From Coriobacteriia bacterium (GTDB taxonomy: Bacteria > Actinomycetota > Coriobacteriia > Anaerosomatales > PHET01), in contig JAXMKZ010000042.1 in assembly GCA_034370385.1 (NCBI GenBank), positions 1 through 42,980 on the forward strand: DNA of 42,980 nt, read 5' to 3'. The translations under genes were made by a program, and so were the position numbers. The notes below the pieces were generated by a model. It was not told the DNA's origin and made no database searches. It saw only the letters and a program-made list of their open reading frames with translations. Shown one piece after another: positions 7,919-13,597 of the stretch (position 1 is its first letter; each line of letters opens with the position of its first letter).

Positions 7919-9187
7919 ATGCCTGAACTTCCACTCAAAGTCGCGCTCGTCGCTCTCAATCGCCCCGGCTATCAGTCGCTCGCGCTGGGATATCTCAGAG
8001 CCTACGCGGAGGCGCACCCGCGGCTGCGAGGGAAGGCCGCTTTCCAGACACTGGATCTGACTACCGAGGTCGATCCCTGGTGGATCGCATATCGCATCCT
8101 CAGGATGTCGCCCGATGTGGTGGGATTCTCCGTCTACTGCTGGAATGCACGCGCCATCTACCAAGCGTGTTCGATCATCCGCGACGCGAACCCCGATCTG
8201 ACAATCGTACTGGGAGGCCCCGAGGTCACCTGCGTAGCCGAGCAGGTGCTCGAGGCGAACCCCGCCGTGGACATCGTGGTCCGCGGAGAGGGTGAGGAGA
8301 CCTTCTCCGAGCTGCTCAGAGTGATTGCGACCGGCAAGTACCCATGGAGGTGCCCCGGGGTCACCGCTCGGAACGGAAACGAGATCGTCAGCGCCCCCGA
8401 CCGTCCGCTCATGGAGGATCTCGATCAGATCCCGTCTCCCTATCTCACCGGCTTGCTCACACCGGACGCGGCGTTGTCGTATGTCGAGAGCTATCGTGGG
8501 TGTCCCCATCGGTGCAGCTACTGCTTCGAGGGCAAGGGGAGTACCCGCATCCGGTACTTCTCCGCAGAGCGCGTCGCGGCCGACGTGGCGGCCGTCGCCG
8601 ATTCACCCGGCGTACGCTCCTTCTCGTTCGTCGACTCGGTGTTCAACCTCACTCCGGAGAGGCTGCACTGGCTTGCAGGCATCCTTGAACCCTATGCGAG
8701 ACGCGGTCTGGCCCTCCACACGATCGAAGTCGATATTGAGCGTATCGACGAGGAACAAGCCCGTGATCTGCGCAGGGCAGGCGTCGTCTCGGTCGAGACG
8801 GGTCCACAGTCGATAGGCGCCGACGCTCTCAAGACGTGCCATCGCAGTTTCAACCCTGAGTATTTCGCCCGAGGTGTTGCGGAACTCAAGCGCCAAGGAA
8901 TATCCGTCGAATGCGACCTGATCTTCGGCCTTCCGGGGGACGATGCGTTCGACGTCATCGGGGGTCTGCGGTGGCTCTTCGAAATAGACCCGGGCGTCGT
9001 GCAGTCATCGACACTGCACGTGCTCCCCGGCACGGACTTGTCAGAGCGCTCGCAGGAGTTAGGGCTTGAATACGAAGCCGCGTGTGAGCACTGCGTGATC
9101 CAGACTGCCGACATCCGCTTCGAAGACATACGTCGCCTTGAAGTCATGGCCGCAGCGATTCAGAACTCCTATCGCGCCCGCCTCTAG
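7919..9187 (+). CDS. B12-binding-domain radical SAM protein
   Basis: 422 aa. The N-terminal Rossmann-like B12-binding domain (about 5-140) contains SLALGYLRAYAE, PDVVGFSVYCWN and the strand VLGGPEVT, followed by VVRGEGEETF, hallmarks of class-B radical SAM enzymes. The radical SAM core carries an intact CxxxCxxC at Cys195, Cys199 and Cys202 within YRGCPHRCSYCFEG. A DUF4080-like C-terminal part is possible. Such proteins usually methylate or rearrange carbon centres using methylcobalamin and S-adenosylmethionine. The substrate is unknown. The gene is 3 nt behind the degenerate radical SAM-like gene and is probably its partner. A GC palindrome follows the stop. Confidence 0.9.
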   Translation: MPELPLKVALVALNRPGYQSLALGYLRAYAEAHPRLRGKAAFQTLDLTTEVDPWWIAYRILRMSPDVVGFSVYCWNARAIYQACSIIRDANPDLTIVLGGPEVTCVAEQVLEANPAVDIVVRGEGEETFSELLRVIATGKYPWRCPGVTARNGNEIVSAPDRPLMEDLDQIPSPYLTGLLTPDAALSYVESYRGCPHRCSYCFEGKGSTRIRYFSAERVAADVAAVADSPGVRSFSFVDSVFNLTPERLHWLAGILEPYARRGLALHTIEVDIERIDEEQARDLRRAGVVSVETGPQSIGADALKTCHRSFNPEYFARGVAELKRQGISVECDLIFGLPGDDAFDVIGGLRWLFEIDPGVVQSSTLHVLPGTDLSERSQELGLEYEAACEHCVIQTADIRFEDIRRLEVMAAAIQNSYRARL

Positions 9188-10270: not shown

Positions 10271-11164
10271 TCAGATCCCGCCGTTCAACTCGTCTCGAAC
10301 CCTGTCCCATGCTTCGGTGATGGCGACGAGCGCGGGCGTGCGGACCGCCATGGCATCCCGTCCGCTGGCCAGCGCCTCCAGCATCCCCGCGATCGTCGGA
10401 TCGAAGGGCACCTCGGCGATGATCGGCAACGAGTGGTCGCGTGACAACGCTCGAATCCGCTTCGCCCCCTCTTCGGCGAGATCGGCCTTGTTCAACACCA
10501 CTAGCACGGGGAGGTTCAGTCTCCGTGCGAGCTTGACCAACCGCTCAAGATCATGCGCGCCGGAGACCGATGGCTCTGCGACGGCGACAAGCAGATCCGT
10601 ACTGGCGACCGCGGCGATGAGGGGACAGCCGACGCCCGGAGGACCGTCGATCAGGAGCAGATCGGCATCGTGGCGCCCGGCGGCTTCTGAGGCCAAGCGC
10701 CGGACCTCAGTCACTAGCCGGCCCGAGAGGTCCTGTCCGGGTCCCAGCTGGCCGAAAGCAGCGGGTCCAATAGAGCTCGATCCCGTGCACGCTTCCCCGA
10801 CGGTGCGAACTCTCATCGTGATGGCGCCGACCGGGCATTCGTGCTCGCAGCGACCGCACCCCTCGCAGGACAGATGGTCCACGAGGTAGTGATCCGTGCC
10901 GGGCAGAATCGCCGCGAAACGGCAGACATCGTGGCACGCGCCACACGCCGAACACGTCGACTCATCGATGCTCGCCTCGGCGCCACCACTGAACGCGAGA
11001 CAGTCGTCAGTGCGAACGCGCAAGGCCAGTGGCAGGTTCGACGCCTCGACGTCAGCGTCAGCAACGACAACCCGGTTGTGTGCAGCGGCGAGGTGAGCGA
11101 ACGCTGCCGTCAGCGTGGTCTTGCCGGTTCCGCCCTTGCCGGATGCCACGACGATGCTCCTCAA
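10271..11164 (-). CDS. MinD-like P-loop ATPase with ferredoxin insert (second copy)
   Basis: 297 aa. A deviant Walker A of the MinD/Mrp family (SGKGGTGKTT, about 8-17) and LLIDGPPGVGCP. Two 4Fe-4S ferredoxin motifs are inserted after the switch region: Cys71/74/77/81 and Cys100/103/106/110. Such ATPases accompany NifX/NifB-type and orange-protein (ORP) genes and are thought to load or transfer metal clusters. The start is TTG at 11164, overlapping the stop of the upstream paralogue by 4 nt (TTGA), so translation is coupled. It is the last gene of the padR–DUF5320–nifX-like–MinD operon. The two ATPases probably form a heterodimer (inference). Confidence 0.88.
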   Translation of the reverse strand: MRSIVVASGKGGTGKTTLTAAFAHLAAAHNRVVVADADVEASNLPLALRVRTDDCLAFSGGAEASIDESTCSACGACHDVCRFAAILPGTDHYLVDHLSCEGCGRCEHECPVGAITMRVRTVGEACTGSSSIGPAAFGQLGPGQDLSGRLVTEVRRLASEAAGRHDADLLLIDGPPGVGCPLIAAVASTDLLVAVAEPSVSGAHDLERLVKLARRLNLPVLVVLNKADLAEEGAKRIRALSRDHSLPIIAEVPFDPTIAGMLEALASGRDAMAVRTPALVAITEAWDRVRDELNGGI

Positions 11165-12075
11165 CGACGCACCGACTCTCGAGTCGCGATCTTGCGCATC
11201 TCATCGAGGATGCCGCTGAGTGCTTGACGCACATCCGGCATCTCCGCCGCCGCCAGACCTCCGCGTGCGTACACCTCGGCGATACGCCGATCGAAGGGGA
11301 TGCGGGCGATCACGGGAACACCGAATTCGTCGCAGAGCTCGTCGATTCCGTCGCCACCTGTGCCCGCTCGGTTCACCACGACGGCCATCGGCAACCGAAG
11401 TGAACGACCGAGTTCCAGCCCGAGCCTTAGGTCGTGTCGCCCGAACGCGGTCGGCTCGGTCACGAGGAGGAGAGCGTCAGCTCCGCGAACGGCTGCTACC
11501 GCAGCGCAAGCGACGCCCGGTGGCGCATCAAGCACGATGAGATCTGCCGGGACCGATGCGGCGGCATCGCGCGCCGCTCGAATCACTGCGGGCGTCTTGA
11601 CCTGACCCACATCCAGCGTACCGGTCAGCAAGGTGAGACGGGCGAAGTCAGCCGATCGCCTTACCGAGACTTCTCCGATTCGTTTCGGCATCTCGGTGAT
11701 CGCGTTCTCAGGGCATATGTCCACGCACAGACCGCACCCGTGGCACAGCTCCTCGAACACCAGCGCCGAGGAGCCCAGCACCCTAACCGCCCCGTAGGCG
11801 CACGCATCCCGGCACAACCCGCACGCCGAGCAGGCATCTGTGTCGACGGAAGCGAAGAGCGAGTCCACCCGCGTGCTGCGGGGACCCTCGTATCGACCGA
11901 ACAGATGGTCGTTCGGCGCCTCGGCGTCACAGTCGACGAGCGCCACGCGCTCACCGACATCCGCACACAGGGCGCTGATGTTCGTGGCAAGCAGCGTCTT
12001 GCCGGTCCCGCCCTTGCCGGATGCGATGGCAAGCGTGAAGGCGGGGAGGGCCGCAGATGATGTCTGTTCGGGCAA
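11161..12075 (-). CDS. MinD-like P-loop ATPase with ferredoxin insert (first copy)
   Basis: 304 aa, paralogue of the next gene in the operon. Walker A is SGKGGTGKT (about 19-27), a second P-loop element is LIVLDAPPGVAC, and two ferredoxin motifs carry Cys82/85/88/92 and Cys111/114/117/121 (CSACGLC, CHGCGLC). The likely start is TTG at 12075, 2 nt after the stop of the NifX-like gene, with only a weak GGTGGG upstream; a later start is possible but would come close to the P-loop. Expected role: ATP-driven assembly or transfer of Fe-S or heterometal clusters in the cytoplasm, together with its partner ATPase and the two small NifX-like proteins. Confidence 0.86.
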   Translation of the reverse strand: MPEQTSSAALPAFTLAIASGKGGTGKTLLATNISALCADVGERVALVDCDAEAPNDHLFGRYEGPRSTRVDSLFASVDTDACSACGLCRDACAYGAVRVLGSSALVFEELCHGCGLCVDICPENAITEMPKRIGEVSVRRSADFARLTLLTGTLDVGQVKTPAVIRAARDAAASVPADLIVLDAPPGVACAAVAAVRGADALLLVTEPTAFGRHDLRLGLELGRSLRLPMAVVVNRAGTGGDGIDELCDEFGVPVIARIPFDRRIAEVYARGGLAAAEMPDVRQALSGILDEMRKIATRESVRR

Positions 12076-12077
12076 AC

Positions 12078-12455
12078 CTAGGGCCCACCGCAGACGTGCC
12101 GCGAGTCCATGACCGTCAGATCCCCCGCGAGCACGAGTTGTACAGCTTCACCGATGCCGGGCGTCGCGTTCTCAAAGTAGACGGTGATGCCAGCCGCCTC
12201 GAAACCTGCCAGAGGCCTCGCCCCCATGCCTGCGACGATCAGGGCCTGCACTCCGTGTGAAGCGAGTAGGTTGACCGGTCGTAGACAGCCACCCTCTTCG
12301 TGAGGCGGGTTCTCGACGACACGCACCTCGGCAATGGCCCCGTCGACGATCTCCACCAGAGTGAAGCAGTCGCAGTGGCCGAAGTGGCCGGAACGCTCGC
12401 CCTCCAAACCGCCCTCACCTATCGAGGGAACCGCAAGTATCTTGTTCTCGGCCAT
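12078..12455 (-). CDS. NifX/NifB-type (dinitrogenase Fe-Mo cofactor biosynthesis) family protein
   Basis: 125 aa. The start was chosen at ATG 12455 because AGGAGG stands 5 nt upstream. Family features: SGHFGHCDCFTLVEI (the HFG-x-C region), GGCLRPVNLLASHGVQALIV, GMGARPLAGFEAAGITVYF and a C-terminal HVCGG. Proteins of this fold bind metal-cluster precursors; ORP of Desulfovibrio binds a Mo-Cu sulfide cluster. The cysteines here (CDC, GGC, VCGG) could be ligands. It lies 37 nt after the second NifX-like gene and 2 nt before the MinD-like ATPase. No nitrogenase genes are visible, so nitrogen fixation is not implied. Confidence 0.85.
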   Translation of the reverse strand: MAENKILAVPSIGEGGLEGERSGHFGHCDCFTLVEIVDGAIAEVRVVENPPHEEGGCLRPVNLLASHGVQALIVAGMGARPLAGFEAAGITVYFENATPGIGEAVQLVLAGDLTVMDSRHVCGGP

Positions 12456-12492
12456 TCGTGCCTCCTGATCCGGATCGCCGTCTGTGGCGATC

Positions 12493-12855
12493 TCACTCCA
12501 TGCCGGCGTGCGCTTCGCCCTCAACCAGCATGCTCAACGTGCCCTCGGCCCATGCATCGACAGCCTCTCGGACCGTCATTCCGGCACCGGCATAGCCTTC
12601 TATCCCGATCGCATGCAAGGCCCTGTACGCCTTGGGGCCCAGATGACCGGTGATCACCGCCTCCGCGTGGCGAGCCGACACCGCCTCGGCGGCTCCGATG
12701 CCGGATCCCTGCAAGGCGTTGCGGTTCAGCGTGTTGTCCACCGTCTCGAATTCAAGCGTATCGACGTCAACTACTACCAGATAGGCGGCACGCCCAAAAC
12801 GCTCGTCTACCTGGTCGTGCAGCGTCGGTCCGAGAGCCGAAACCCCCACTTTCAC
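12493..12855 (-). CDS. NifX/NifB-type family protein (second)
   Basis: 120 aa. The GTG at 12855 is preferred: AGGAGG lies 8 nt upstream and the protein then opens with KVGVSALG as in the family. Conserved stretches are DERFGRAAYLVVVD, a GSGIGAAEAVSARHAEAVITG segment (residue numbers about 52-72), and HLGPKAYRALHAIGI. Unlike its neighbour it has no cysteine, so it may be a scaffold or partner rather than a cluster carrier. It overlaps the stop of the DUF5320 gene by 4 nt (GTGA). It is part of the padR operon. Confidence 0.83.
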   Translation of the reverse strand: MKVGVSALGPTLHDQVDERFGRAAYLVVVDVDTLEFETVDNTLNRNALQGSGIGAAEAVSARHAEAVITGHLGPKAYRALHAIGIEGYAGAGMTVREAVDAWAEGTLSMLVEGEAHAGME

Positions 12856-13067
12856 GACTGCCACCTCCTGTGCCTTCCGAGGATCGAGCCCCGGTGGCGT
12901 CCGCCCCTGGGGCCACCGCATCGGCTCTTGAGTCCTCGGCCGATGCCTCTCTCCCACGATGCCAAGAGGCTACCGAGTATCGCCGGGTCGTCGGTGATGC
13001 AGAACCCTTGTCCGCGACCCGTCATCGTTCCGTGGCCGATCGGGCCGGTGCTGTCGTATCCGGGCAT
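12852..13067 (-). CDS. DUF5320-family small protein
   Basis: 71 aa, glycine- and arginine-rich. It begins MPGYDSTGPIGHGTMTGRGQ, the signature of DUF5320 proteins (MPG-DRTGP-G-GPMTGRG). One Cys follows in GFC and one in RCGG. GGGAGG lies about 8 nt before the ATG at 13067. DUF5320 genes are repeatedly found beside NifX-like and MinD-ferredoxin genes in anaerobes, but the function is unknown. It sits 18 nt after padR and overlaps the next gene by 4 nt. Confidence 0.8.
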   Translation of the reverse strand: MPGYDSTGPIGHGTMTGRGQGFCITDDPAILGSLLASWERGIGRGLKSRCGGPRGGRHRGSILGRHRRWQS

Positions 13068-13085
13068 GATGATTACCTCCCATGA

Positions 13086-13523
13086 TCAGGTGTCGTCGAC
13101 GCTTCCGAGCGCCGAGCCAAGTGCGTCAGCGAGGCGACGGGACAGCCGCTCGCGCTCGCGCAGGTGAGCTACCCAGTCTTCTGCAAGCTCGCGGCCTTCC
13201 TCTGTGAGGCGATACTCGCGACGCTGGGGACCGGCTTCGCTCTCGCACCACTCGGAGGTGACGAACCCCTCCTCTTCGAGGCGGCGCAGGACGCGGTAGA
13301 GTCCGCCCGCGTCGACTTCGATCTCACCGTTGGTGATGTCGCTGATCTCGCGACGCAAGTCATAGCCGTGACCGGTTCGGCCTACGAGAGCCGCAAGTGC
13401 TGCTGGCTCGGCGAAGGCGCCGAGCCCTCCTCCGCCACCCCTGCGGCAGCACGGACGGGATGCCCCGTGCCGAGCACCCTGCATCCCAACGACGTCAGGG
13501 TCGCATCCTCGACCAGGAACCAT
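13086..13523 (-). CDS. PadR-family transcriptional regulator
   Basis: 145 aa. The ATG at 13523 is preferred, with GGGAG 5 nt upstream; an in-frame TTG at 13535 is the alternative. The N-terminal tail is Cys/Gly/Arg-rich (PCCRRGGGGG) and could sense metal or redox state (inference). The winged-helix domain follows: TGHGYDLRREI, GGLYRVLRRLEEEGFV (recognition helix and wing) and QRREYRLTEEGRE. The C-terminal helix would dimerise. As first gene of its operon, with a palindrome over its own -10, it is probably autoregulated and controls the metal-cluster genes behind it. Confidence 0.88.
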   Translation of the reverse strand: MVPGRGCDPDVVGMQGARHGASRPCCRRGGGGGLGAFAEPAALAALVGRTGHGYDLRREISDITNGEIEVDAGGLYRVLRRLEEEGFVTSEWCESEAGPQRREYRLTEEGRELAEDWVAHLRERERLSRRLADALGSALGSVDDT

Positions 13524-13547
13524 GCTCGCTCCCAACTAGGTGTAGAC

Positions 13548-13578
13548 TGCATATACGAGACACCCCGTACTATATGCA
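13548..13578. promoter_or_regulatory. Probable PadR operator
   Basis: TGCATATA (13548-13555) and TATATGCA (13571-13578) form a perfect 8-bp inverted repeat with a 15-nt spacer. The right arm overlaps the -10 box of the padR promoter, a good place for repression. Binding by this PadR is inference. Confidence 0.55.
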
Positions 13579-13597
13579 TCTATCATCTAGTTGTCAA
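13569..13597 (-). promoter_or_regulatory. Promoter of the padR operon
   Basis: On the minus strand TTGACA (13597-13592), a 17-nt spacer and TATAGT (13574-13569) form a near-consensus sigma-70-type promoter 46 nt ahead of the padR start. Confidence 0.75.

Follow-up and report, generated by a model that had tools for sequence, protein, structure and literature searches.

The window, a stretch of 42,980 nucleotides of a Coriobacteriia genome, contains a six-gene operon on the minus strand (13523-10271) that encodes, in this order, a PadR regulator, a DUF5320 protein, two NifX-family proteins (NifX-1 and NifX-2) and two MinD-ferredoxin ATPases (A and B). From its sequence we read this operon as a lineage-specific metal-sulfur module of the orange protein (ORP) type that is probably autorepressed by PadR, the signal probably being the state of the NifX proteins or a cysteine pair of PadR itself. 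We put the probability of this reading at roughly 0.6.

The six genes, their families and their tight packing, all listed in the first-pass annotation, are confirmed by Pfam searches and by a reading of the starts and junctions (Table 1). Gene starts were chosen by means of ribosome-binding sites and homologues, and the junctions from padR to ATPase B measure 18, -4, 37, 2 and -4 nt. The two NifX proteins, which match PF02579 with E-values of 1e-19 and 6e-19, are the sole PF02579 proteins of the genome (2.69 Mb, completeness estimate 100%). Neither Mrp nor MrpORP is encoded in the genome; the best further ParA match is a Soj protein adjoining ParB. The absence of nitrogenase genes, originally seen in the window, holds genome-wide, as there is no match to PF00148 (nifDKEN) in this practically complete genome. 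The NifX-like annotation could hint at leftover nitrogenase cofactor genes, yet the lack of any nifDKEN-type gene, together with best PDB matches to ORP and TM1816 instead of NifX/NafY, leaves this explanation next to no probability. A MoaE-like neighbour (13990-13628) was considered as a member of the system and rejected, being encoded in none of the 80 related loci. A search of the region for structured RNA yielded a single match, at chance level.

Table 1. Genes and predicted regulatory elements of the operon (positions in the window).
Feature	Position	Strand	Characteristics
padR	13086..13523	-	ATG start; 145 aa; PadR family, PF03551, E 1.2e-19 (Pfam)
DUF5320	12852..13067	-	ATG start; 71 aa; PF17253, E 3e-9 (Pfam)
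NifX-1	12493..12855	-	GTG start, AGGAGG upstream; 120 aa; PF02579 Nitro_FeMo-Co (Pfam)
NifX-2	12078..12455	-	ATG start; Cys/His-rich; PF02579 Nitro_FeMo-Co (Pfam)
MinD-ferredoxin ATPase A	11161..12075	-	TTG start; CbiA/ParA + Fer4 (Pfam)
MinD-ferredoxin ATPase B	10271..11164	-	TTG start; CbiA/ParA + Fer4 (Pfam)
Sigma-70-like promoter TTGACA-17-TATAGT	13569..13597	-	11/12 consensus match
Predicted PadR operator O1, TAGATG-atagatg-CATATA	13571..13589	-	overlaps -10; kept upstream of padR in relatives
Predicted PadR operator O2, TATATG-cagtcta-CACCTA	13537..13555	-	in leader

Using ATPase A as the query, we retrieved 80 homologous loci from named genomes; the locus set is therefore conditional on this protein. 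The phyla represented include Actinomycetota, Bacillota, Thermodesulfobacteriota, Lentisphaerota and several archaea. The grouping first noticed in the window is borne out by this co-occurrence survey, in which the gene set, whole or in part, recurs around the ATPase homologues of the 80 bacterial and archaeal loci. Since, moreover, a dozen close relatives have an identical gene order, the set is not a chance assemblage. When the window is counted, 77 of the 81 loci contain a NifX-family member. About 33 loci have DUF134 as the adjoining regulator and 18 have PadR; none of the 81 has both. The usual order in the PadR group is padR, (DUF5320), NifX-1, NifX-2, (Mrp), ATPase A, ATPase B, with Mrp located within the operon in three relatives. 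The DUF134-associated ORP-type operons of Firmicutes, Deltaproteobacteria and archaea share the genes for NifX, DUF5320 and ATPases A and B with the window, but have DUF134 as their regulator in place of PadR. The nearest named relatives of the window locus are Coriobacteriia MAGs. The presence of the operon is patchy across the order, and the family to which the window belongs yielded no close match in its three other genera.

Both ATPases carry a deviant Walker A motif and an inserted 2x[4Fe-4S] ferredoxin with two CxxCxxCxxxC motifs. The Walker A of ATPase A reads GKGGTGKT and its switch-II region D183-x-P-P-G-x-x-C190; ATPase B has the same architecture, with D173-x-P-P-G-x-x-C180 in switch II. 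Among the proteins with a readable D-x-P-P-G motif, to which the count is confined, all 97 ferredoxin-type ATPases have a cysteine three residues past the PPG glycine, whereas 31 of 36 Mrp-type proteins have an aspartate there. This cysteine lies at Walker-B Asp +7, the position of the cluster ligand Cys132 in NifH; by analogy, a NifH-like cluster may bridge the two ATPases. In a FastTree analysis the ferredoxin-bearing ATPases form two groups, and the first copy falls into one clade in 51 of 51 tandem pairs (support 0.70), a clade that contains no second copy of these pairs. Because the split is consistent throughout, it looks like an old duplication that has been kept as a pair, with A and B as two ancient tandem paralogues of bacterial and archaeal ORP-type loci.

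The AlphaFold2 model of ATPase A (pLDDT 95, pTM 0.91) has its best structural matches among MinD proteins, with Mrp/ApbC, Cfd1 and the nitrogenase Fe protein further down. These matches would fit a pair of ATPases that positions something in the cell, at the septum, pole or chromosome, as the Desulfovibrio authors proposed for the ORP complex of D. vulgaris, to which they assigned possible roles at the septum or Z-ring. We regard such a function as improbable, however, because MinD lacks the eight cluster cysteines and the switch-II cysteine of the ferredoxin-type ATPases, the neighbouring and fused genes belong to cluster assembly and not to division, and the C-termini differ among the few relatives compared.

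NifX-1 has its best PDB match in 2WFB, the orange protein of D. gigas (E 9.6e-21; 44% identity over 108 aa), and both proteins fall into one clade (support 97/87, from a short alignment in which the bootstrap has not settled). NifX-1 belongs to a PadR-linked subclade of this clade, in which Mo-Cu binding is known from ORP; for NifX-1 such a cluster is a prediction. The protein is free of cysteines, as would be expected if it held a cluster non-covalently in the manner of ORP. NifX-2, on the other hand, displays the motifs HFGHCDC, PPHEEGGC and CGG, and is found in a separate clade of 15 rows (support 100/100) with conserved HFG(H/R)CD, GGCL and CGG. It shares the HFGHC and PPH motifs and a C-terminal cysteine with the Di-Nase domain of MrpORP, whose Cys/His motifs have been proposed to hold a [3Fe-4S] cluster (PMC6345978), and it scores 52.5 bits against the Di-Nase half of the MrpORP model. 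Even so, we rejected the idea that NifX-2 is a split Di-Nase, as it is free-standing and has a clade of its own outside the Mrp fusions. The combination of a Cys-free NifX-1 with a Cys-rich NifX-2 suggests that the two proteins either hold distinct clusters or act as donor and acceptor.

The same domain family includes IssA of Pyrococcus, and reports on this protein (PMC8351635; PMC5524996) offer a precedent for NifX proteins that would store iron and sulfur as thioferrate, here under PadR control. IssA holds its thioferrate by means of a cationic tail at the C-terminus (PMC6345978). The C-termini of NifX-1 (LVEGEAHAGME) and NifX-2 (DSRHVCGGP) are not strongly cationic and, despite the common Nitro_FeMo-Co fold, no such tail is present, which makes a storage role very improbable.

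Comparison with the ORP locus of D. vulgaris, made through the accounts of later papers, supports a resemblance suggested earlier as far as the core is concerned. Like the D. vulgaris complex (Orp3, Orp4, Orp5, Orp8 and MrpORP/Orp9), the window encodes an ORP-clade NifX (an Orp8 homologue) and a pair of MinD-like ATPases that contain two [4Fe-4S] motifs apiece. In D. vulgaris, Orp3, Orp4 and Orp8 co-purify and the complex accepts an Fe-S cluster from MrpORP (PMC6345978). The resemblance does not extend to the rest of the system. Whereas the D. vulgaris genes form two divergent operons controlled by sigma-54, DVU2106 and IHF, the window has a single operon with a sigma-70-like promoter and PadR, its genome is devoid of an Mrp/MrpORP loader, and it adds DUF5320 and a second, free-standing and Cys-rich NifX. 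The D. vulgaris complex also includes Orp5, a small [2Fe-2S] protein; the only other small protein of the window operon is DUF5320. As two defining features, MrpORP and the divergent sigma-54 operons, are missing, the operon should not be filed as a Desulfovibrio ORP system. Judged by its sequence, it is a module of the ORP type whose regulator is specific to the lineage and whose core is made of ORP-system parts.

The padR promoter is the best of four promoter-like sites in the region, where 0.5 would be expected from shuffled sequences. Its -10 element is overlapped by the palindrome TAKATG-N7-CATATA (O1), of which O2 is a second copy. Across 26 PadR-type loci the best site per locus scores 10.35/12 on average, compared with 6.9 in shuffles, and 23 of the 26 reach at least 10/12 (two upstream regions having been re-anchored); the motif was derived from these very loci, which affects neither the controls nor the genome counts. 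As a control, 112 upstream regions of non-PadR loci gave a maximum score of 9. Allowing for one mismatch, the pattern occurs in this genome at O1 and O2 only, both in front of padR. Where any of seven additional genomes contains an exact match, it always precedes padR; these genomes have few one-mismatch sites at other places, and a reversed-pattern control gives a similar number. The simplest reading is that PadR, which combines a PF03551 domain with a conserved inverted repeat at its own promoter, acts as a dedicated autorepressor of its operon. The N-terminus of PadR is a Gly-rich extension with a vicinal cysteine pair (RPCCRRGGGG), and 19 of the 26 PadRs, including that of the window, have this pair. 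Its use as a signal input is a guess; the stretch is modelled with low confidence.

A link between PadR and the NifX proteins emerges from gene fusions. In four genomes of a single clade (L039, L040, G076 and G080), PadR and an ORP-like NifX form one protein of 280-289 residues. These fusions are 82-100% identical (82-90% when compared with that of L039), are uninterrupted by stops and contain both Pfam domains; the structure model shows two confident domains joined by a low-confidence linker. The fused NifX is nested in the NifX-1 clade, beside the NifX-1 of the window, and the operator is retained upstream of the fused genes. Furthermore, five genomes of the same class (Coriobacteriia) have padR followed by NifX-2 alone, with no ATPase genes nearby. 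PadR control, previously deduced from gene order, is thus backed by both a conserved predicted operator and PadR-NifX fusions. Taken together, the fusions, the ATPase-free pairs and the Cys-pair extension suggest that the NifX proteins may report to PadR. A more specific proposal, which we put forward tentatively and at somewhat less than even odds, is a two-part metal-cluster sensor in which NifX would be the sensory domain and its Mo/Cu or Fe-S occupancy would set the repression of the assembly operon.

Other fusions were also detected, and one of each type was confirmed with Pfam: NifX-DUF5320 in three loci, Mrp-NifX in five and NifU-Mrp in three. Through these fusions DUF5320 is connected with NifX, and the module with Fe-S assembly. 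From this angle, the operon could encode an Fe-S assembly and delivery factor and nothing more. PadR would then be an ordinary autoregulator that senses some unrelated ligand or oxidant, its linkage to NifX being due to operon proximity. Small hydrophobic molecules are the usual ligands of PadR proteins, which would suit this explanation, as would the NifU-Mrp and Mrp-NifX fusions and the transfer of Fe-S from MrpORP to the Orp3-Orp4-Orp8 complex (PMC6345978). Yet proximity explains neither the PadR-NifX fusion in four genomes nor the ATPase-free PadR and NifX-2 pairs, and we consider pure delivery unlikely.

Anaerobic handling of Fe-S or Mo-S clusters is the best reading of the module as a whole. 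In the PadR-autorepressed module that we favour, ATPases A and B would work as a heterodimer, using ATP-driven motion and electrons from their [4Fe-4S] clusters to load or reduce a metal-sulfide cluster on the NifX proteins, with DUF5320 as a putative accessory bound to NifX. PadR, seated on the -10 element, would keep its own operon repressed, and this repression may be lifted or imposed depending on whether a NifX protein is in the apo or the cluster-loaded state, or by way of the cysteine pair at the PadR N-terminus. By such a response, we propose, the operon would be matched to the demand for clusters.

The padR operator, the PadR-NifX fusion and the PadR and NifX-2 pairs without ATPases appear to be new; we found no link between PadR and NifX/ORP in the literature searched, which included a minority of the subscription papers. 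There is no agreed function for the orange protein and its ATPases, for which both cell division and Fe-S maturation have been proposed. The interest of the operon lies in an apparent coupling of its repressor to a predicted cluster-binding protein, with which the repressor is even fused in relatives. A dedicated repressor with a defined predicted operator, fused to such a protein in some species, is an experimental handle, as whatever changes the binding of PadR to the operator would reveal the metal or cluster to which the system responds. A minimal version of the system is at hand in the PadR and NifX-2 pairs, which occur in closed genomes from the same class. If the sensor reading is true, the orange-protein fold would gain a role in signalling.

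Across the 81 loci, all 97 MinD ATPases of the ferredoxin type that could be read have a cysteine in the switch-II region, seven residues after the Walker-B aspartate, which is where Cys132 lies in NifH. PadR and the NifX-like proteins also occur together in other arrangements. In four genomes (G041, G042, G076 and G080; loci L039, L040, L159 and L160) PadR and an ORP-like NifX domain form a single polypeptide. In five further genomes, all from one family of the class Coriobacteriia (loci L153, L154, L155, L156 and L157), padR is followed by the gene for the Cys/His-rich NifX-2, with no ATPase genes close by, and each of these loci has two predicted operators upstream of padR, spaced 32 bp apart. 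ORP-type loci of archaea and Deltaproteobacteria (L082, L076, L106, L058, L062 and L066) often encode a metallo-beta-lactamase-fold protein, a radical SAM protein, and DUF1847-like and CGGC-like proteins, all named by eye.

Genes flanking the operon in the window
Gene product	Position	Strand	Remark
MoaE-like protein (PF02391)	13990-13628	minus	directly upstream of padR
Peroxiredoxin	10172-9411	minus	in-frame TGA at peroxidatic position
B12-binding radical SAM protein	7919-9187	plus	listed family matches below cut-off

The MoaE-like gene is absent from all 80 related loci compared. The radical SAM protein matches many C-methyltransferase families, none of them over the cut-off among the matches listed. 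In the peroxiredoxin gene, the TGA falls precisely at the peroxidatic residue (FTFV-U-ATE), and the read-through product matches NCBIfam PrxU with 405.6 bits (cut-off 270). Since the same genome encodes SelB, with a tRNA-Sec gene adjoining it, the product is very probably a selenocysteine peroxiredoxin, whose gene standard gene calling would break in two.
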